In this document: piece after piece, positions 3,323-61,246 of the stretch
How positions within the stretch are numbered: the stretch's first letter is position 1
Layout of the letters: the number at the start of each line of letters is the position of its first letter
Origin: Periweissella cryptocerci
Lineage (GTDB): Bacteria; Bacillota; Bacilli; Lactobacillales; Lactobacillaceae
Assembly: GCF_004358325.1 (NCBI RefSeq)
Contig: NZ_CP037940.1
Location: 124,001-188,000 of the forward strand
Direction: 5' to 3'
DNA length: 64,000 nucleotides
The notes under the pieces: generated by a model
Told to the model about the DNA's origin: nothing
Seen by the model: the letters and a program-made list of their open reading frames with translations, nothing else
Databases searched by the model: none
Program-made: the position numbers and the translations under genes

Positions 3323-3901
3323 TTAAAACTGTTGCTTTTGTCGTTTGATGTAGCCGAGCATTGGGAATAAAACAAGTCCAGATACTAATGACAAAGCAAC
3401 ACCTTGTATTAAGTTAAATGGTAATACAATTCCGACCAAATATTTTGAAAAAGGTCCAACACTGAAGTGCGCGAAGATTTCGTACAAAGGAATTGCATAC
3501 ACCCAGTTCAAGAATGCCATCACAACGGTTAATACTAACGTGCCGACAATTGAACCCAAAATGTATTGTGAAACCTTGATATCTTCACTCTTGCGAATGA
3601 ACAACCAAATTCCAGTAATGAAAAGTCCCATCGCAACGATGTTCATGGGCATACCAATCCAATCATTTACCCCGCTGTTATTAATCAGCATCTTAAGGAT
3701 TGAGCGGATAACTAAGATTGTTAACGCGCTTGGTAAACCTAACATTGCCATCCCGATGATAACAACGACGACCGAAAAATCAAGGCTCATGAAACCGAAC
3801 ATTGGAATTTTCGGAAAAATCATCAGAACTGCGGATAAAGCGGATAAAAGTGCAATCACAACTAAACGACGAGTACTTGAAACGCTGGAAACTTTTTGCA
3901 T
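3323..3901 (-). CDS. ribU: Riboflavin ECF transporter substrate-binding component RibU
   Basis: This 192-residue membrane protein is the riboflavin-specific S component of an energy-coupling factor transporter; it binds riboflavin and works with the shared EcfA/EcfA'/EcfT module, which is not in this window. It has about six helices. The segment FPKIPMFGFMSLDFSVV near residues 29-45 is characteristic of RibU. I chose the ATG at 3901 because it has the Shine-Dalgarno AAAGGATGG upstream and gives the family's usual N-terminus; a longer reading frame extends 20 codons upstream without support. An FMN riboswitch lies about 210 bases upstream, so FMN should repress it. It is co-transcribed with the YczE-like gene. 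Confidence 0.92.
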   Translation of the reverse strand: MQKVSSVSSTRRLVVIALLSALSAVLMIFPKIPMFGFMSLDFSVVVVIIGMAMLGLPSALTILVIRSILKMLINNSGVNDWIGMPMNIVAMGLFITGIWLFIRKSEDIKVSQYILGSIVGTLVLTVVMAFLNWVYAIPLYEIFAHFSVGPFSKYLVGIVLPFNLIQGVALSLVSGLVLFPMLGYIKRQKQQF

Positions 3902-4012
3902 GATAAAACCATCCTTTGTGGCATCATCTTCTGGTCTGGTGTTTTTGTAATAACACGACAAACTATCTTATTGCAATCTTTAAACGGGTTGCAAAAATGC
4001 GTCCCGATTGTA

Positions 4013-4068: not shown

Positions 4069-4113
4069 TTCAGCACAAAAAGAGATTGTCATTTGTCTAT
4101 TACAAATAAACCA

Positions 4114-4231
4114 ATCTTCTATATACCTGACTTTAACAGTCGGTTCTGGAATTACACCAGATCAGCTCGAAACGAATTTCGAGGTCGCGGACTTTAACCA
4201 CCGGTCGGGATTTACACCCTGCCCTGAAGAT
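4114..4231 (-). promoter_or_regulatory. FMN riboswitch (RFN element)
   Basis: Read on the minus strand, the aptamer opens with ATCTTCAGGGCAGGGTG, continues with AAATCCCGACCGGTGGT and AAAGTCCGCGA, and closes with GAAGAT, which pairs with the opening ATCTTC to form P1. These are the hallmark RFN conserved blocks. The variable arm AATTCGTTTCGAG lies where it is expected. It precedes ribU and should shut down ribU-yczE when FMN is abundant. Confidence 0.95.
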
Positions 4232-4349
4232 TACTGCATATTTAATTCTTACTTATTGTAAATGATACTTATGAGTTATGTCAACACTTTCGTGAAAATG
4301 CCGACGTAACCTGGCTAGTTTTAGCTGTTACAGTTACCTTACGACCTGA

Positions 4350-5854: not shown

Positions 5855-6247
5855 GGTTCGATTTATTCGCGTGGCCTTGTCGTTTCCGTACTTTTCAATC
5901 ATCGAATTACTAAGGTTCTATTTTCAGTGTTTGTTCCATGCTACTGCGACCCATAGTTGGTACCTGTTTTTCGCTAGTTTGAGCATTATATCTAACTAAC
6001 GAAGTGGCGGTAAATTACTTGGTGGGCGTAGCCTTTACACCACGACTGGGGTGATATGTGTGAAACACATGTCGCCGCTGAGGGTAAGCTGAGGAGTCTT
6101 AGGAATTTATTCCTTAGAGTCCCAGCTTATCCGAGTTGTTCAAGACCGCACTTTGGCTTGAACATGTGCTTCCAGCGTGGTGCACCAAGTAATTTACTGA
6201 CACGTAGTGACCAATATTATTCAATCCCATATCAGACGAAGTAGAGC
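5855..6247 (+). repeat. Structured dispersed repeat family A, copy 2
   Basis: Full-length copy. The left end is GGTTCGATTTATTCGCGTGG and the right end ATCAGACGAAGTAGAGC. Its third hairpin has arms TTGTTCAAG and CTTGAACATG around the constant loop ACCGCACTTTGG, unlike copies with arms CCTCCCAAG and CTTGGGAGG. The second hairpin has arms GTCTTAGGAA and TTCCTTAGAG(T). A-rich flanks on both sides (ACAAAAAC left, AAAAAAGT right) may be a worn target duplication. Confidence 0.85.
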
Positions 6248-6300
6248 AAAAAAGTGCTAACAGACTCACATCTACTAACACCTAATCTATATGCACTTTA
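6248..6300 (-). terminator. Possible terminator of the scp-rluB operon
   Basis: On the minus strand AAAGTGC and GCACTTT can pair around a long loop that has weak internal pairing, followed by a T-run. It is positioned right after rluB and abuts the outer end of repeat A copy 2. The long loop makes it a weak call. Confidence 0.45.
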
Positions 6301-11719: not shown

Positions 11720-11757
11720 CTGGGGATGAGACAAATTATGTCTTGTCCTCTTTTTTT
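11720..11757 (+). terminator. Terminator of the hemolysin III gene
   Basis: GGGGATGAGACA and TGTCTTGTCCTC pair around AAATTA and are followed by TTTTTTT. A truncated repeat A end begins immediately after the T-run. Confidence 0.85.
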
Positions 11758-11822
11758 GCTGTGTTTCGTCTGACGTGGGATTGAATAAACTTGGCCACTG
11801 CGTGCCTGGGTAGAATGAACAA
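11757..11822 (-). repeat. Truncated repeat family A end
   Basis: GCTGTGTTTCGTCTGACGTGG followed by the next A-type bases (GGATTGAATAAACTTGGCC) matches one end of family A in inverted orientation; the match stops near 11822. It directly abuts the T-run of the preceding terminator. Confidence 0.7.
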
Positions 11823-13232: not shown

Positions 13233-13602
13233 GGCTAGATTTTTTCTAGCGTGAAATTGTCGTCCTTTTTAATCATCGAATTACTGAGCTTCTATTGTCA
13301 GTGTTGTTTTCCATGCTACTACGGCCGGTGTTTGGAAGATGAGGAGTCTTAGGAATTTATTCCTTAGACTCCCAGCTTGTCCGAGTTGTTCAAGACAGAC
13401 ATCCAGCCTGCAAGGCTAATCTAATCGCGTTAGGATTAGATTCAGTATTTTGTGCGACAAAATGCTGGGATATTTTGCGTTGCCGGTTCGCAGGCATAAG
13501 CACAGACTGGCTTGAACATGTGCTTCCAGCGTGGTGCGCCAAGTAATTTACTGGCACGCAGTGGCCAATTCTATGCAATCCCACGTCAGACGGAATCGAA
13601 AC
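13233..13602 (+). repeat. Structured repeat family A, copy 3 (rearranged loop)
   Basis: Left end GGCTAGATTTTTTCTAGCG, right end CCACGTCAGACGGAATC. The central part from the first hairpin is deleted, and the constant loop of the third hairpin (between TTGTTCAAGA and GGCTTGAACATG) is replaced by about 110 bases. The new loop carries its own hairpins: TAATCTAATC with GATTAGATT, and ATTTTGTGCGACAAAAT. Insertion in the loop keeps the stem intact. Confidence 0.8.
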
Positions 13603-13629
13603 AAAAAAGCCACCTTTTTATCGGTAGCT
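13603..13629 (-). terminator. Terminator of the DUF2187-like gene
   Basis: On the minus strand AGCTACC pairs with GGTGGCT around GATAAAAA and TTTTTT follows. It abuts the right end of repeat A copy 3. Confidence 0.65.
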
Positions 13630-16136: not shown

Positions 16137-16220
16137 AATTGTTAGGTTAGATGATTTGAGACCAGCGCGACAAATTTCTTTCACACGATATAAATTTCAT
16201 CTTGATGCCCAATAAAAGAA

Positions 16221-16430
16221 CGGGGCTGGGACATAACTTGTCCAGCCAGCAAAATAAGCCGGATTTCTCCTTATTGTGTAAGGTAGAAATCCGGCTTATT
16301 AACGTGGAACAAAAGGCTGCAACCATTGATATAACTCACTTAATTCATCACCACGTTCGCTTTGCTCACTATCGCTGACGAATTAAGTTTCATTATATCA
16401 AGGTTGCAAAACACCTTTTGTCCCACTTCC
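16221..16430 (-). repeat. Dispersed repeat family C, copy 2
   Basis: Inverted copy of the family also found at 1221 and 29811. It runs from GGGGCTGGGACATAACTTG through the AAGCCGGATTTCT/AGAAATCCGGCTT hairpin to AAAACACCTTTTGTCCCAC. The long inverted repeat (TTGATATAACTCACTTAATTC with GAATTAAGTTTCATTATAT) is clearer here than in copy 1. Confidence 0.7.
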
Positions 16431-16489
16431 GTTAAATCCAGTCAGCTACTCCTGATTAAAGTTAACCTTTTTGTGGTATTTTCCACACT

Positions 16490-16535: not shown

Positions 16536-16611
16536 GACTCTATTACATCTGACGTGGGATTCTCATTGCTGTACTTTTGTTTAAGCGTACTCATATATCA
16601 TAGAATATACT
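16536..16611 (-). repeat. Truncated repeat family A, variant end
   Basis: GACTCTATTACATCTGACGTGG matches the GGCTCTATTTCGTCTGACGTGG end. It continues into the variant left-arm sequence GTACTTTTGTTTAAG and AGAATATACTTTA, also seen at 30060, 35530, 52080 and 63835. It ends at the stop codon of the ABC permease. Confidence 0.6.
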
Positions 16612-19554: not shown

Positions 19555-19829
19555 GACTAAAATTTTTTTAGCGTGGAATTTGGATATGTGTCTCAGGTTG
19601 ATTCCCACTACGAGGCTGGAACCAGTCTGGACACCGTGATGGAAGACAAGCATTTGAAGCCACAGTGCGGTCTTCAAATGTTTGCGAAGCTTGGTTCGCT
19701 AACGCGGTAACCATCTTCACAAATCCATAATCCTTGTCACTACAAGTTTAGCGGTAATCAATAATTCCACGCAGTGGCATCATACATCTCATCACATTTT
19801 ATAAATTCCACGTCAGACGAAATAGAGCC
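19555..19829 (+). repeat. Structured repeat family B (MITE-like), copy 1
   Basis: It begins GACTAAAATTTTTTTAGCGTGG and ends CCACGTCAGACGAAATAGAGCC, so the ends belong to the family A type. It is flanked by TTCATCTT (19547-19554) and TTCATGTT (19830-19837), an 8-bp target duplication with one change. The interior of about 130 bases is virtually identical to the copy at 60959. One hairpin, arms CATTTGAAG and CTTCAAATG, encloses CCACAGTGCGG, the reverse complement of the family A constant loop. Confidence 0.85.
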
Positions 19830-23134: not shown

Positions 23135-24737
23135 GGCTCTATACTTTTTACTGTTGGTGGAGAAATCCGTCAGCAGTTTTTTATGTTCTTCGCGAGGGTG
23201 GAGCAAAGCGACAGATGAGCCTAGAATAGATAATTATGTACAAAACAAAAAGGACATATTAAATGTCCATCACCACGTTCCAACCGACAAAAATCAAAAA
23301 GTATGCGAGGTTATTTATTATGTCCCAAGACAATTGTATCTACGTGAGTTAAATTTTAATAAAAACATCCATTTACCGACAATGAAGCAGGAGAATGGAA
23401 CTATTTTGATTATCGTGGTCGCGGAGACAAGCGACATAAATGCTTAATTTATACCGCTAATTTAACCTATTCCGTTAGCCGATGCAGTGACTGTGGTTTT
23501 CGTGATTGCGTCGAGCACTGGGGGTGGACTTCAACCGAGATGCGACTCACTGGCACGAGCTTGTGGGATGTGCGCTTAGCGCTGCGTAAACAACGTTTTT
23601 CACTGTAAGAATTGTGGTAATAACATTACAGCAGCGTCATCCGACTTCGAAAAGAACTGCCAAATTTCACGAAACACGAAAGTAATCGTAAAACAGAATC
23701 TAAACGAAGATATGATGACAGAAAAAACTGTAGCTAAGCACCTTCATATCTCACCTAATTCTGTACAACGAATCGAATATGACGCAATATACGAAGGCGG
23801 ACAATACAAGTATCAATACAATTTTAAACAACAATTACCCGAAGCTATTTCCATGGATGAGTTCCGCTCAGCCAATGATCAGTTTAGCTTTATTTGGTGT
23901 GATGCCACTTCAATCAAGCAATTTGAAGTACTGCCCAATCGACTAACCAAAACAATCAAACAATATTTTCTTGGATTTCACTAGCTAATCGGAGCGTGTT
24001 AAGCACGTTGTCATGGATATGAAACGCTCAATACGCCAGTTTCATTAAGTTCTTATTCCGAACGCAAGAATCATTATCGACGGCTTCCATATCGCTCAGC
24101 GTATCGGGTAACGCCTTTGGATAGTGTTCGTAAGAACATTCAAAACGCATTGATGATAAACAAATAATCGAGCCCTATAAAATCATGAAGAGTCAATGGA
24201 AAAATCTTCACATGATGTATGAGGATCTCGAAAAAACGAAACCTTATTACATGCGTGGAATTAATGAATATCTAACACAAGAACAAGCGATTGGCATCGT
24301 CTTCGACGAATATCCTGAATTTGGTCAGGTTTGGACTGCATATCAGGAAATTATGAAAGCAATGCATAACAAAGATTTATCAGGTTTCGAAGACATCATC
24401 ACTCATTACACGATTATGGGAAACGATATGGACAGCGCAATTTCGACTTTCGCCAAAGATATAAGGAATTCAAACAGCATCACCTCGAACTATTCAAATG
24501 GACGCGTTGAAGGTATGAACCACAAAATCAAACAGCTTAAACGTAACTCGTGTGGTTACAAAAATATGGCTCACTTACTCTGGCGAATCCGTCAGATTTT
24601 TTAAGATGTCCCAATCTCCATTTATTTGGCTCATATGTCACTCCGTTCCATCCTCGCAAAATAAACAAAAAAGGAACCAGAATCCATTAAGATTCTAGTT
24701 CCAAAATAGTCCTACCAACAGAATTTGACACAGAGCC
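23135..24737 (+). mobile_element. ISL3-family insertion sequence, decayed
   Basis: The element starts GGCTCTATACTTTTTACTG and ends with its imperfect inverse (read inward GGCTCTGTGTCAAATTCTG, then TTGGT). It is flanked by an exact 8-bp target duplication AATTTTTC (23127-23134 and 24738-24745), the size typical of ISL3. The transposase is broken by frameshifts. The target lies in the loop of the two-component operon's terminator. Confidence 0.92.
23402..24604 (+). pseudogene. Broken ISL3-family transposase
   Basis: Three pieces in different frames align with an ISL3 transposase. Piece one (from about 23402 to a stop at 23606) contains YFDYRGRGDKRHKC and the first zinc pair SRCSDCG; a frame change then restores the second pair CKNCG. 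Piece two (23712-23984) carries EKTVAKHLHISPNSVQRI and a DDE-type FIWCDATSIKQF with the expected Asp. Piece three (24185-24604) contains the C-terminal SNGRVEGMNHKIKQLKRN with the conserved Glu. Frameshifts and stops make the element non-autonomous. Confidence 0.85.
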
Positions 24738-24778
24738 AATTTTTCCTGCTTAAGCCGGGAGAAATTTGGTGTTTTTTT

Positions 24779-24992
24779 GCCCTATTTTGGATGACGTGGG
24801 ATTGCGTAAAATTGACCACTGCGTGACGGTAAATTACTGCCACTCCGTTATTCGGAATAATGCTCAAGATAGCTAAAAACAGTTACTAACCATAGATCGC
24901 AATAGCATGAAAACTGAGAACCAATAGAACCGTAGTAATTCAATATTTGCAAAGTACAGAAACGACAATCCCACGCTAGAATAACTAGAACC
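24779..24992 (-). repeat. Repeat family A, internally deleted copy
   Basis: An inverted copy of about 214 bases with both ends (CCCTATTTTGGATGACGTGG and CCACGCTAGAATAACTAG) but without the hairpin core. The join lies between the AGTAAATTACT-like and GCCACTCCGTTA segments. It begins directly after the T-run of the two-component operon terminator. Confidence 0.75.
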
Positions 24993-25057
24993 GGAATTTT
25001 TAACCCCATTTCCATATGATACTGGTCAACATTGTATTCTGTACACGCCGCCCTACA

Positions 25058-29593: not shown

Positions 29594-29621
29594 TGCGAGC
29601 GCTAGGATGAGTTACCAGTTT

Positions 29622-29773
29622 GGCCCTATTCCGTCTGACGTTAGATTGAATAAACTTGCCCACTACGTGCCAGTAAATTACTGCCACTCCGTTAGTTAGT
29701 ACTAATTCTCAAACTAGGGAAAAACAATTGCCAACCACAGAAACGACAATCCCACGCTAGGCTAAATATAGCC
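29622..29773 (-). repeat. Repeat family A, short deleted copy
   Basis: Both ends are good: GGCCCTATTCCGTCTGACG at the left and GGCTATATTTAGCCTAGCGTG (read inward on the minus strand) at the right. The hairpin core is missing, leaving 152 bases. No clear target duplication was found. Confidence 0.75.
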
Positions 29774-29810
29774 GGAACAATGCATGTTTGCAAAATAGCG
29801 AAAAAAGGAA

Positions 29811-30003
29811 GTGAGACAAAAAGCGGTTCGCAACCTTGCTATAATGAAACTTAACTTGTCAGCGATAGCGAGCAAAAACGAGTGTAGTGATGAATTAAGT
29901 GAGTTATATCACCGTTTGCAGTCTTTTGCTCGTTAATAAGCTGGATTTCTACCTAAGATAAGGAGAAATCCGGCTTATTTTGCCGGCTGCCTAATTTATG
30001 CCC
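29811..30003 (+). repeat. Dispersed repeat family C, copy 3
   Basis: It begins GTGAGACAAAAAGCGG and continues with CAACCTTGCTATAATGAAAC, the long imperfect inverted repeat and the AAGCTGGATTTCT/AGAAATCCGGCTT hairpin. The tail matches the extra end seen at 16221 in inverted form. It lies between two family A copies. Confidence 0.7.
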
Positions 30004-30049
30004 TAGCCCTTTTTCGTTATGATAAATTACTGTCTATTTATTCTTGCGC

Positions 30050-30600
30050 AGACCCTCATTTCGGTACTTTTGTTTAAGAATACGCACATGCCCCACCAGA
30101 GAATATACTTTAGGCACTAGTTTGAGCACATCACAAAATCAAGTGATAGCCGATTTGATTAAATCTGCACCCCACGAATTGTCTGATAGTAATATTTCAA
30201 GCACCAATAATGTGGCGTAGTGAAAACGCAGATACAAAAAAATCGACATGCTATATCAATAGTATATCGATTTCACGAACCAATTTTGATTAGTACTGTT
30301 TTACATATGATAACTCTAAACAACAACTTTTTCGCTAATCTGAGAATTATCACTAACTAACGGAGTACCGGTAAATTGCTTGGCGGGCGCAGCCTTTACA
30401 CCGCGACTGGGGGAATATGTGTGCAGCACATATTTCCGCTGAGGATAAGATGAGGACTCTTAGGAATTTATTCCTTAGAGTCCCAGCTTATCCGAACCTC
30501 CCAAGACCGCACTTTGGCTTGGGAGGTTGCTTCCAGCGTGGTGCGCCAAGTAATTTGCCGGCACGTAGTGGCCAATTATATTCAATCCCACATCAGAACG
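30050..30600 (+). repeat. Structured repeat family A, enlarged copy
   Basis: The left part carries the variant arm (GTACTTTTGTTTAAGAATAC, AGAATATACTTTAGGCAC) shared with 52080 and 63835. The right part from about 30360 is the standard core with hairpin arms CCTCCCAAG/CTTGGGAGG around ACCGCACTTTGG. About 100 bases with a separate hairpin (ATCGACATGCTATATC... TATATCGAT) separate the two parts. The right end abuts the terminator of the cysteine desulfurase gene. Confidence 0.7.
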
Positions 30601-30637
30601 AAAAAAGGCTATGACTGAAAAATCAGTCATAGCCTTT
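30601..30637 (-). terminator. Terminator of the cysteine desulfurase gene
   Basis: On the minus strand AAGGCTATGACTGA and TCAGTCATAGCCTT form a perfect stem followed by TTTT. It abuts the right end of a repeat A copy. Confidence 0.9.
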
Positions 30638-36483: not shown

Positions 36484-37356
36484 TTATTTTTGCGTATCGA
36501 AGTAGCTAACTGGTTTTTGCACTTCGGTTTTCGTGCCTTTGTATTCCTTAGTAACATACGCTTGGATCGTTTTGTCGTGGTATAACTTAACTAATTTCTT
36601 GTAGCTTTCATTATCACCATTCTTCTTGGCCGTTGCTAAAATATTGATGTTAGCCGTTGTGTGGCTATCAACATGCTCATAGAAAATTGAGTCATTTAAC
36701 ACGTTCAACCCCGCTGCTTGTGATACTGAATTAGAAATCAGTACCGCCCCAATACTGTCGTCGTGCAATAATCGTGGACCAGTTGTGTCATCAATTTCGA
36801 GGAATTTAAAGTGATGGGGATTGCTAGTAATTGCTTCTAAACCAGATAATGCCGTGAATTTCGGTGACAACGTAATTAGCTTAGCCGCTGCTAACAAGCG
36901 TAGTCCCCGCGCTTCATCAGCTTGGTCTTTTGCCACCGCAATTTTCGCACCATTTGGTATGTCGGTAACCGCCTTGTACTTACTTGAGTAGATTCCCAAT
37001 GGTTCGAGGTATGTCGTACCTAAGTTAACTAGGGGCGTGTTGGGATGGGTTTTGTTAAAGGCATCAAGGTAACCATATGATTGGAAGGCATTGACGTCGA
37101 TTTCGCCATTCGCCGTCGCGGTATTTAACGTTGCGCCATCCGTGAATTCTTTAACACTAATTTTTAAATCTAACTTCTTAGCTTGGGGTGTTTGGGCAAT
37201 GTGGCGCCAAATATCGGCATCACTCGTTACTGAGCCAATGGTAATCGCGGATGATGATTTTCCATCATGAGCTTTAACATACGTTACTCCGCCGGCAATA
37301 ATTGCCACAGCGGCCACAACGCCAACAATAATTTTTCGTACTTTTACTTGTGTCAT
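36484..37356 (-). CDS. MetQ/NlpA-family substrate-binding protein
   Basis: This 290-residue protein resembles the binding protein of methionine ABC importers: ITIGSVTSDADIWRHI near 38, VNAFQSYGYLDAFNK near 85 and AKIAVAKDQADEARGLRLL near 130. It has an N-terminal hydrophobic segment (KIIVGVVAAVAIIAGGV) but no lipobox cysteine, so it may be anchored by its signal or released. No MetN/MetP genes lie beside it. It follows metC on the same strand, and both were probably under the upstream T-box. Start chosen at the ATG with AAGGTGA upstream; in-frame ATGs further upstream lie in a tandem repeat. Confidence 0.82.
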   Translation of the reverse strand: MTQVKVRKIIVGVVAAVAIIAGGVTYVKAHDGKSSSAITIGSVTSDADIWRHIAQTPQAKKLDLKISVKEFTDGATLNTATANGEIDVNAFQSYGYLDAFNKTHPNTPLVNLGTTYLEPLGIYSSKYKAVTDIPNGAKIAVAKDQADEARGLRLLAAAKLITLSPKFTALSGLEAITSNPHHFKFLEIDDTTGPRLLHDDSIGAVLISNSVSQAAGLNVLNDSIFYEHVDSHTTANINILATAKKNGDNESYKKLVKLYHDKTIQAYVTKEYKGTKTEVQKPVSYFDTQK

Positions 37357-37368
37357 AAGTGAATTCAC

Positions 37369-37520
37369 CTTCATAATTTCATTGCATTCAGGTAGCCCGA
37401 CCGGCACCTTCATAATTTCATTAGATTCAGGCAGCCCAATCGGCACCCTTCATAATTTCATTAGATTCAGGCAGCCCGACCGGTACCTGCGTAATTTCGT
37501 TGTGTTCAGATTCCCGAATA
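37369..37520. repeat. Tandem repeat of 39-40 bp upstream of the MetQ-like gene
   Basis: Four units recur at 37372, 37411, 37451 and, decayed, 37490. The core on the plus strand is CATAATTTCATTAGATTCAG followed by GCAGCCCGACCGGCA. On the minus strand each unit contains ATTATGAAGG, so the leader of the gene offers repeated ATG and Shine-Dalgarno-like sequences. The repeats fill most of the gap to metC. Confidence 0.85.
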
Positions 37521-38747: not shown

Positions 38748-39142
38748 GGCTATATTTTTTCTATCATGGGGGTTGTCGTTTCTGTACTTTTTAATCATCG
38801 AATTACTGAGATTCTGTTGTCGGTGTATTTCCCATGCTACTGCGGCCTATGGTTGGTAACTGTTTTCGCTAGTTTGATCATTGTTCCTAACTAACGGAGT
38901 GTCAGTAAAGTGCTTGGCGGGCGCAGCCTTTACACCGCGACTGGGGGAATATGTGTGTAGCACATATTTCCGCTGAGGATGAGATGAGGAGTTTTGGGGA
39001 TTTATCCCCTAGAGTCCCAGCTTATCCGAACCTCCAAAGACCGCACTTTGGCTTGGGAGGTTGCTTCCAGCGTGGTGCGCCAAGTAATTTACTGGCACGT
39101 AGTGGCCAAATTTATTCAATCCCCGTCAGACGAAATAGAGCA
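38748..39142 (+). repeat. Structured repeat family A, copy 7, with target duplication
   Basis: The element starts GGCTATATTTTTTCTATC and ends GTCAGACGAAATAGAGCA. An exact 8-bp duplication AAAAAAGT flanks it (38740-38747 and 39143-39150). The second hairpin has arms GTTTTGGGGAT and ATCCCCTAGAGT, a paired change relative to other copies (AGGAAT/ATTCCT). The target is the U-tract of the T-box terminator of metC. Confidence 0.9.
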
Positions 39143-39178
39143 AAAAAAGTCCCGCAGTCTAATTAAAGACTGCGGGAC
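39143..39178 (-). terminator. T-box-controlled terminator
   Basis: On the minus strand GTCCCGCAGTCT and AGACTGCGGGAC form a perfect 12-bp stem followed by TTTTTTT. Downstream the family A element begins within the former U-tract. Confidence 0.92.
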
Positions 39179-44800: not shown

Positions 44801-44853
44801 AAAATAAAAAGGATGTTCACTCAATTTACTTGAGCGGACATCCTTTTTATTTT
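44801..44853. terminator. Terminator of the lactate oxidase gene
   Basis: AAAAAGGATGTTCACTCAA and TTGAGCGGACATCCTTTTT form a long stem with T- and A-runs on both sides, so it may work in both directions. The end of an inverted repeat A copy merges with its T-run. Confidence 0.9.
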
Positions 44854-45235
44854 GGCTGACGTGGAATTGAATATAATTGACCACTACGTGCCAGTAAATT
44901 ACTTGGCGCACCACGCTGGAAGCACATGTTCAAGCCAAAGTGCGGTCTTGAACAACTCGGATAAGCTGGGACTCTAAGGAATAAATTCCTAAGACTCCTC
45001 ATCTTATCCTCAGCGGCGACATGTGTTTCACACATATCACCCCAGTCGTGGTGTAAAGTCTGCGACCGCCAAGCAATTTACCGGCACTTCGTTAGTTAGG
45101 CGTAATGCTCAAACTAGCGAAAAATAATTACCAATCACAGGCAGCAGCATGAAAAACCGCTGACAATAGAACCTCAGTAATTCGATGATTAAAACGTACC
45201 GAAACGACAATCCCACGTTAGAAAAAATATAGTCC
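44854..45235 (-). repeat. Structured repeat family A, copy 8 (inverted)
   Basis: Read on the minus strand it runs from GGACTATATTTTTTCTAACG to CCACGTCAGCC. Its third hairpin is of the GTTGTTCAAG/CTTGAACATG type around the constant loop, as in copy 2. It fills the gap between the convergent lactate oxidase and glycerophosphodiesterase genes and abuts the terminator of the first. Confidence 0.85.
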
Positions 45236-52048: not shown

Positions 52049-52461
52049 GATTCTATCGTAAAATTGTCATTTCTGTTCAAGAATACTCATGCGCCACGGA
52101 ATATACCTTAAGCACTAGTTCTGATCACATCACACAATCAACGATACCTGATTTGATTGAATTTACCCACCAACGAATGTTTTTCGCTAGTTTGAGTATT
52201 ACCACTAACTAACGGAGTGCCGGCAAATTACTTGGCGGGCGCAGCCTTTACACCGCGACTGGGGGAATATGCGCGGAGCACATATTTCCGCTGAGGATAA
52301 GATGAGGAGTCTTAGGAATTTATTCCTTAGACTCCCAGCTTGTCCGAACCTCCCAAGACCGCACTTTGGCTTGGGAGGTTGCTTCCATCGTGGTGCGCCA
52401 AGTAATTTGCTGGCACGTAGTGGCACTTTATATTCATTCCCACATCAACCGAAAAAGAGCC
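52049..52461 (+). repeat. Structured repeat family A, copy 9 (variant left arm)
   Basis: The left part starts near ATTCTATCGTAAAATTGTC and has the variant arm (CAAGAATACTCATGCG, GGAATATACCTTAAGCAC). The core from 52190 is standard, with the first hairpin AATATGCG/CACATATT and the third CCTCCCAAG/CTTGGGAGG. It ends CGAAAAAGAGCC. The left end abuts the 3' arm and T-run of the split ugp terminator. Confidence 0.8.
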
Positions 52462-52476
52462 GTCATTACATTTGTA

Positions 52477-60857: not shown

Positions 60858-60958
60858 CGCCGTACCCTCTTTTCTATTACCTTGATTGTACCATTTCTCA
60901 TTATACTTTAATAAACACATTTATTATTCGTTTCTGACTGCCAATTACGCCAAAAAAG

Positions 60959-61206
60959 GGCTAAAATTTTTCTAGCGTAGAATTTGGCTATGTGTCTCAG
61001 CTCCATTCCCACTACGAGGCTGGAACCAGTCTGGACACCGTGATGGAAGACAAGCATTTGAAGCCACAGTGCGGTCTTCAAATGTTTGCGAAGCTTGGTT
61101 CGCTAACGCGGTAACCATCTTCACAAATCCATAATCAGTAACCAAACCCGTTACTGATTATGCCATCACGGTGCGAGCTAAATTCCACGTCAGACGAAAT
61201 AGCGCC
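60959..61206 (+). repeat. Structured repeat family B (MITE-like), copy 2
   Basis: It begins GGCTAAAATTTTTCTAGCG and ends CCACGTCAGACGAAATAGCGCC. AAAAAAG occurs on both sides (60952-60958 and 61207-61213), a 7- to 8-bp duplication. The 130-base core matches the copy at 19555 almost exactly. The target is the T-tract of the terminator of the alcohol dehydrogenase gene. Confidence 0.85.
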
Positions 61207-61246
61207 AAAAAAGGAATCCAACCCAGTTAATGGTCGAATTCCTTTT
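61207..61246 (-). terminator. Terminator of the alcohol dehydrogenase gene
   Basis: On the minus strand GGAATTCGACC and GGTTGGATTCC pair around ATTAACTG and are followed by TTTTTT. The T-run is the target duplicated by the adjoining family B element. Confidence 0.85.

Follow-up and report, generated by a model that had tools for sequence, protein, structure and literature searches.

A dispersed four-helix module with paired stem changes in MITEs with ISL3-type ends from Periweissella cryptocerci

MITEs are usually viewed as empty shells between two ends, and to our knowledge no ISL3 MITE has been described whose fold is conserved across a family. The ends of IS200/IS605 elements and the hairpins of REP sequences are single-stranded DNA hairpins bound by protein. 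IS200/IS605 elements have neither terminal inverted repeats nor target duplications, and REP/BIME sequences are associated with a RAYT (Y1 HUH) transposase. RUP is mobilised by an IS. In Streptococcus pneumoniae, BOX, RUP and SPRITE are dispersed multi-hairpin repeats that are enriched between convergent genes and drawn as folded transcripts; the available part of the paper describing them uses neither of the words covariation and compensatory (PMC3049150). The available part of a MITE review mentions neither ISL3 nor any name in Lactobacill- (PMC10969869).

The repeats of Periweissella cryptocerci described here share with ISL3-family IS and MITEs inverted ends beginning GGYTCTATTT, 8-bp duplications and a resident transposase matching NF033550. 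As with BOX, RUP and SPRITE, their hairpins are several per copy, and copies are dispersed and enriched between convergent genes. They also resemble REP/BIME sequences with RAYT and IS200/IS605 ends in being intergenic hairpins with a conserved part, in occurring as inverted pairs and in their link to the replication strand. Unlike both, they have terminal inverted repeats, 8-bp duplications and a four-helix module of 130-200 nt. The orientation of their insertion follows the direction of replication, as does that of Tn7 and IS elements oriented at the fork via the beta clamp; the available part of a review attributes fork-oriented insertion to Tn7 and to IS families including IS200/IS605 and does not mention ISL3 (PMC5371812).

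The window, that is the whole stretch of DNA analysed, covers 64 kb of the P. cryptocerci genome (one contig of 3,020,651 bases). The copy in focus, which starts with GG at 5855, has the limits given in the original prediction. It and its relatives are the following.

5855-6248 (end 6247/6248), + strand: copy in focus, whole family A MITE; starts GG, left end GGTTCGATTTATTCGCGTGG, right end ..CAGACGAAGTAGAGC
6003-6203 (approximate limits), + strand: structured module of the copy in focus; covariance model R1 matches 6073-6180 with 34.9 bits
6010-6022 and 6185-6197, + strand: lower P1 arms of the copy in focus, GTAAATTACTTGG and CCAAGTAATTTAC
6136-6165, + strand: P4 of the copy in focus (hairpin 3 of the original prediction), TTGTTCAA, loop GACCGCACTTTGGC, TTGAACAT
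2172-2559, + strand: A copy, module match 2355-2498
13236-13607, + strand: A copy, P4 region interrupted or replaced
30328-30602, + strand: A copy without left part, module match 30399-30541
38758-39147, + strand: A copy, module match 38933-39075
44848-45217, - strand: A copy in opposite orientation, module match 44911-45018
52178-52466, + strand: A copy without left part, module match 52254-52395
19557-19829, + strand by its ends: family B MITE, module on the - strand at 19776-19637
60957-61207, + strand by its ends: family B MITE, module on the - strand at 61173-61036
24773-24993, - strand: shortened derivative with A-type ends, without module core
29619-29768, - strand: shortened derivative with A-type ends, without module core
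11752-11804, - strand: A-type right-end fragment

Counted by eye, there are seven A copies (four near full length, one interrupted, two without left part), two B copies, which are 97% identical across 176 nt, and about seven shortened or end-only relatives. The total of about 16, also a by-eye count, fits the at least 14 full or partial copies noted originally. All three arm types listed for hairpin 3 are found among the eight hairpins of the window: CCTCCCAA/TTGGGAGG at 30505 and 52357 (8/8 pairs), TTGTTCAA/TTGAACAT at 6144 and 44934 (7/8 pairs) and CATTTGAA/TTCAAATG at 19659 and 61063 (8/8 pairs). Two further copies, at 2462 (CCTACCAA) and 39039 (CCTCCAAA), have one unpaired change each. Overall, four of the eight hairpins form 8/8 pairs and four form 7/8. 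The three variants of hairpin 2 are present as well, AGGAAT/ATTCCT in four copies, GGGGAT/ATCCCC at 39039 and GGGAAT/ATTCCC at 2462. The loop of hairpin 3, predicted to be constant, is near-fixed and not strictly so: it reads GACCGCACTTTGGC in 5/8 hairpins, GACCGCACTGTGGC in the two B copies and GAACGC.. at 2462. A further set of repeats resembling the left arm of A (..GTACTTTTGTTTAAG..) lies at 16555, 30048, 35528 and 63821; it may represent a third family of MITEs that shares these ends.

Genome-wide, the P4 loop with at most one mismatch occurs at 194 places, and its reversed control at none; the dispersed copies number about 200. By BLAST, all 40 scored candidates (of 317) match the element, most near full length, and one 59-base fragment was found in addition. 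Covariance model R1 matches 146 of 150 scored candidates (772 candidates in total). The A and B copies are about 250-430 bp long. In four congeneric genomes (1.8-2.0 Mb), element, loop pattern and module model all remained without a match. A blastn search of plasmids with three different elements gave none either, and viral contigs gave two pattern matches.

Relative to the element ends, the hairpin points one way in all 67 clear A cases and the opposite way in all 38 clear B cases. With unclear cases included, 107 of 124 A copies follow the rule, 11 are reversed and 6 are ties; in B, 59 read one way, none the other, and 3 are ties. The original prediction is corrected in this point: between the element ends, the hairpin of family B reads opposite to that of A.

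In an alignment of 30 element copies the inverted ends are imperfect and about 27 bp long. The genome also contains a resident IS of about 1.53 kb, whose transposase matches NF033550 (ISL3) with 249 bits (cut-off 180). Five copies of it that were examined, some of them broken, have ends like those of A and B (left ..TAGCGTGGGATT, right ..GTCTGACGTGGG), again beginning GGYTCTATTT, and reading of the flanks reveals an 8-bp target duplication at 5/5. Of 240 offsets compared for A and B, the predicted boundary is the very one at which the flanks match best. The duplication is a perfect 8/8 in 13/63 A and 20/58 B end pairs, a count with imperfect A/B labels and some mispaired ends; the copy in focus no longer keeps a matching duplication. 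The first end-pair census (157 pairs) included mispaired and nested ends, and for orientation a loop-based assignment was used instead. Because ends and 8-bp target duplications are common to both, A and B are, judged by sequence, most probably non-autonomous MITEs of the resident ISL3-family IS.

The original prediction had suggested that a transposase may recognise the loop. Involvement of a transposase is borne out by the terminal inverted repeats, the 8-bp duplications and the NF033550 match. The P4 loop as a target of the ISL3 transposase was rejected, because it lies one way round in A and the other way round in B, between ends that the two families share. We also rejected an IS200/IS605-type element recognised through its hairpins, as terminal inverted repeats and target duplications are present. 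Transposase copies of 97-100% identity were found in the P. cryptocerci genome only; the four congeners searched have remote matches of 24-58% identity, the higher values being short pieces. These congeners, which lack the elements and close IS, have genomes of 1.8-2.0 Mb, compared with 3.02 Mb in P. cryptocerci. A more distant ISL3 transposase survives at 23598-24595 (+ strand) of the window as a decayed remnant, broken into pieces and interrupted by stops.

GC skew, followed over 632 kb of sequence, changes sign near 1.65 Mb, a position that we read as the putative replication origin. Element orientation flips at this switch. Among 187 of the 194 loop places, A copies number 51 on the + and 16 on the - strand to the left of 1.65 Mb and 10 and 51 to the right; the corresponding numbers for B are 2 and 33, then 24 and 0. 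The favoured orientation with respect to replication is therefore taken by 102/128 A and 57/59 B copies. The loop-assigned census gives 98/124 and 59/62, and 4/5 IS copies agree with this polarity. By their ends, both A and B point against fork movement. Since the modules of A and B face opposite ways, orientation follows the transposon ends and not the hairpin. In comparison, the BOX, RUP and SPRITE repeats mildly follow the coding strand, with 60.8-63.3% on the leading strand in the available part of their description (PMC3049150).

Gene direction alone does not explain the polarity. For the 179 of 186 elements with both neighbours, favoured and unfavoured orientations number 34 vs 9 between convergent genes, 105 vs 12 in co-directional and 7 vs 3 in divergent contexts; the anti-directional set (5 vs 4) is too small to decide. 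The flip at the skew switch suggests that the ISL3 transposase may insert in a fork-oriented manner. A crude regex scan of the transposase found no beta-clamp-like motif. In Levilactobacillus brevis, with the record start taken as origin, no replication flip of the modules was seen (+44/-27 and +41/-38), which argues that polarity is a property of the carrier. The strong polarity of B makes it a natural model for work on fork-coupled transposition in the ISL3 family.

The module between these ends is composed of four helices, P1 closing P2, P3 and P4, the last with a near-invariant loop. Loci of the positive genomes have this architecture in common rather than their sequence: P1 is followed by three hairpins, the last with loop GACCGCnCTTTGGC. 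The paired stem changes that had drawn attention to the element are real and systematic, as judged from shuffled and slid controls in a count of P4 and in the whole fold. The P4 count rests on 168 hairpins with 119 distinct arm pairs, single hits from unrelated MAGs being kept in. Pairs 4-8, left free in the search pattern, are paired in 92% of cases vs 49% after shuffling (maximum 55% in 1000 shuffles), and all four Watson-Crick types occur at each position. Eight pairs extend beyond the loop, and pairing falls to 21% at pair 9.

For the whole fold, a structure of 42 pairs was drawn by hand and compared with an alignment (A1) of 43 sequences, obtained by thinning 56 sequences (of 168) that formed three branches when folded without constraint. 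In this alignment, the members of which were partly chosen for folding so, 91.8% of cells are paired vs 75.1% after shuffling and 33-45% after sliding, with no correction for relatedness. Both sides have changed in 33/42 pairs. The covariation score is 0.435 vs 0.145 for shuffled alignments, and 0/500 shuffles reach it, although these controls ignore relatedness. With the RNAalifold structure alone, 22/30 pairs have changed on both sides.

The motif AGAC/GGCU is common to P3 and P4. P3 shows it as an A.G mismatch in 32/43 sequences. In P4 its A and G are invariant (43/43); the unpaired A was treated as a bulge in the structure counted here, and it could also be drawn as an A.G mismatch like that of P3. 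Other mismatches recur in P2 (U.U, 26/43) and P1 (C.A, 20/43). On the loop strand, G-U exceeds A-C (71 vs 33). P1-P4 also form in the B consensus, where the motif is AGAU/AGCU instead of AGAC/GGCU. In 38 aligned copies of L. brevis, the pairs adjacent to the loop are mostly GAG/CTC and not AAG/CTT, so these pairs also change together. Rfam 15 gave no family at the modules of the window at gathering threshold, where its sole match is an FMN riboswitch elsewhere, and no match overlapping a module at 14 loci with E up to 5. At five L. brevis loci no Rfam family was found; one sX13 match of 20.6 bits (gathering score 50) overlaps one copy (L353).

The module is spread across Lactobacillaceae. Covariance model R1, for which sequences of other genera alone were used, recovers 8/8 modules of the window, those of B on the opposite strand. 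It is positive in 121/395 Lactobacillaceae genomes and 15/40 genera, with at most eight candidates scored per genome and stricter filters. In an order-wide sample 12/295 genomes are positive, and the single one outside the family has one match with E 6e-4. The loop pattern alone was found in 43/397 genomes and 10/40 genera of the family, with one control match. The carriers named among at least 120 such stretches include many Levilactobacillus and several Lactiplantibacillus; Companilactobacillus, Secundilactobacillus and Lacticaseibacillus porcinae are also represented, and single matches in unrelated MAGs are probably due to chance or contamination. L. brevis CD0817 has at least 150 modules, as 150/150 scored candidates (of 1151) reach 88-129 bits. 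Five loci of other genera (L340, L342, L344, L345 and L346) have P1-P3 without P4 and keep a motif like AGAC/GGCU. No description of the element was found in the open-licence literature, where absence is weak evidence.

Some Lactiplantibacillus modules lie, singly or head to head, within a different MITE with ends ACGCTTGGTGCTAGTT. For 12 elements of this kind, the best flank match falls at a single boundary, with 60% vs a mean of 29% over 169 offset pairs. An exact 8-bp duplication is seen in 4/12; two more match at 7 of 8 positions, and another two are exact if shifted by one base. These elements show that two or more MITEs whose ends are unrelated carry the same module. Module strand and gene strand are not linked in the other genera (n = 143): module and genes are ++ in 32 cases and -- in 31, 30 modules lie between convergent and 15 between divergent genes, 23 inside an ORF and 12 at an edge. 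The 216 neighbouring proteins contain no recurring family; at most 6 of them fall into one cluster, and by eye the clusters listed resemble ordinary transporters and enzymes.

These observations fit best with a folded strand that would bind a protein and benefit its carriers, RNA being likelier than DNA, since the loop and mismatches are near-fixed while the stems are free, G-U is in excess, two carriers are used and the gene strand is immaterial. In such a scheme, the ISL3 transposase would act on the ends shared by A and B, make the 8-bp duplications and insert the element so that one of its ends leads with respect to the replication fork. Each MITE contains the four-helix module as nested cargo, separate from the carrier. 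The module would work as a folded single strand, probably RNA, with a putative protein gripping the P4 loop and the AGAC/GGCU motif. Thus gripped, it may help the carrier to persist or spread, and the fold would be selected mainly in element lineages. We lean slightly towards this combined account. Points against it are the lack of coupling to the gene strand, of a recurring neighbour and of a flip in L. brevis, together with the 11/124 reversed A copies and the 9 ties. A cis-regulatory leader or 3' UTR is not favoured, because the module uses both strands equally relative to genes.

That MITEs of different genera, whose ends are unrelated, keep the same fold suggests that the interior serves the element, in other words that the inside of a MITE does something for it. 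L. brevis is routinely grown, and with at least 150 copies it makes expression, binding and mobility directly testable. A bolder proposal, which we make tentatively and regard as somewhat unlikely in its entirety, is that the module represents an undescribed class of structured RNA of Lactobacillaceae. This class, with four helices and up to hundreds of copies per genome, would have a dedicated predicted protein at the P4 loop and AGAC/GGCU motif, and unrelated transposons would have taken it up on more than one occasion as maintenance cargo, polarity arising from a fork-sensing ISL3 transposase.

The conserved fold could instead be that of selfish DNA, the hairpins forming in single-stranded DNA at the fork and being bound there by a protein of replication, repair or transposition. 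The arrangement of copies is in line with this: close pairs are mostly head to head (6/7 L. brevis pairs closer than 700 bp, and 18 such pairs among the loci examined), and copies between convergent genes outnumber those between divergent ones (30 vs 15), both of which resemble REP/BIME arrangements. Orientation following replication in P. cryptocerci, and a module strand not tied to the gene strand, would also be expected. However, the replication bias tracks the ISL3 ends and not the module strand, which is opposite in A and B, it is not seen in L. brevis, and no family recurs among the 216 neighbouring proteins. We consider a DNA fold unlikely, and the folded strand that benefits its carrier, probably as RNA, remains our preferred reading.

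This preferred reading places selection mainly in the element lineage. If instead each copy served the host, as a terminator, mRNA stabiliser or small RNA, selection would hold it in place. Modules of P. cryptocerci do lie closer to the consensus than the arms, in 61/61 B and 100/106 A copies (for B, 2.1% vs 7.2% and 10.5%). Singletons, however, are not clearly rarer in the module. In B they amount to 81/8393 (0.97%) in the module vs 47/4663 (1.01%) and 91/6077 (1.50%) in the arms (Fisher p 0.04, fewer in the module), and in A to 94/20493 (0.46%) vs 37/15278 (0.24%) and 20/4167 (0.48%) (p 0.007, more in the module). As their frequency is about equal in module and arms, strong per-copy purifying selection in P. 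cryptocerci is largely withdrawn. Changes found in at most two copies are rarer in the module, with 125/8393 (1.49%) vs 91/4663 (1.95%) and 185/6077 (3.04%) in B (p 2e-7) and 142/20493 (0.69%) vs 131/15278 (0.86%) and 44/4167 (1.06%) in A (p 0.02). This deficit of doubletons speaks for the host-serving role, and a weak per-copy constraint is possible. Against that role, most changed pairs in B no longer pair (75/112), and both strands are equally used relative to genes. Inserted copies seem to decay, with a constraint that is weak at best, and the fold seems to persist mainly in those lineages of elements that are still spreading.

Orthologous copies in Levilactobacillus bear on the same alternative. 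In the sum of six, 63/1228 sites differ in the element vs 200/1271 in the left and 111/1121 in the right flank, with 0-2 gaps in the element, as selection in place would give. In 2/6 pairs, on the other hand, the element has diverged more than its right flank. An earlier count of zero broken pairs between orthologues was partly circular and has been dropped. In a fairer test, with the structure taken from one sequence, 15 changed pairs are kept (10 G-U and 5 Watson-Crick) vs 10 broken, and with that of the other sequence 13 are kept vs 12 broken, a modest retention. At some sites the copy is absent or cut down in another species, which also counts against a host function. That one intergenic site may hold different subtypes across species would agree with it. 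Altogether, we regard a host-serving role for each copy as improbable.

Highly improbable, finally, is that pairing arises by mutation, template switching at imperfect palindromes copying one arm onto the other: the hairpin 3 arms of family A do differ in blocks of several pairs, as a single switch would give, and the module has singletons about as often as the arms do, but arm copying would tend to erase mismatches that are kept (the unpaired A of P4 in 43/43, A.G of P3 in 32/43, U.U of P2 in 26/43), the loop is near-fixed while stems vary, and pairing stops after eight pairs, with 21% at pair 9.

Some further sites merit separate mention. At L313/L324, L215/L290 and L031/L328, the same intergenic site has different module subtypes in different Levilactobacillus species, which suggests replacement or repeated use of the site. 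At L301, the site of the L261 copy, little is left beyond the 5' P1 arm, as after internal deletion.

Other features of the window include the FMN riboswitch at 4110-4235 (- strand, 103 bits), upstream of a - strand ORF at 3323-3961. Two related neighbouring ORFs, at 466-1212 and 1421-2149 (248 and 242 aa), contain a 71% direct repeat, and related stretches are found at 16212-16433 and 29804-30020. A short tandem repeat with a unit of about 39-40 bp (CCTTCATAATTTCATT..) lies at 37368-37509 and overlaps the start of the - strand ORF at 36484-37446.
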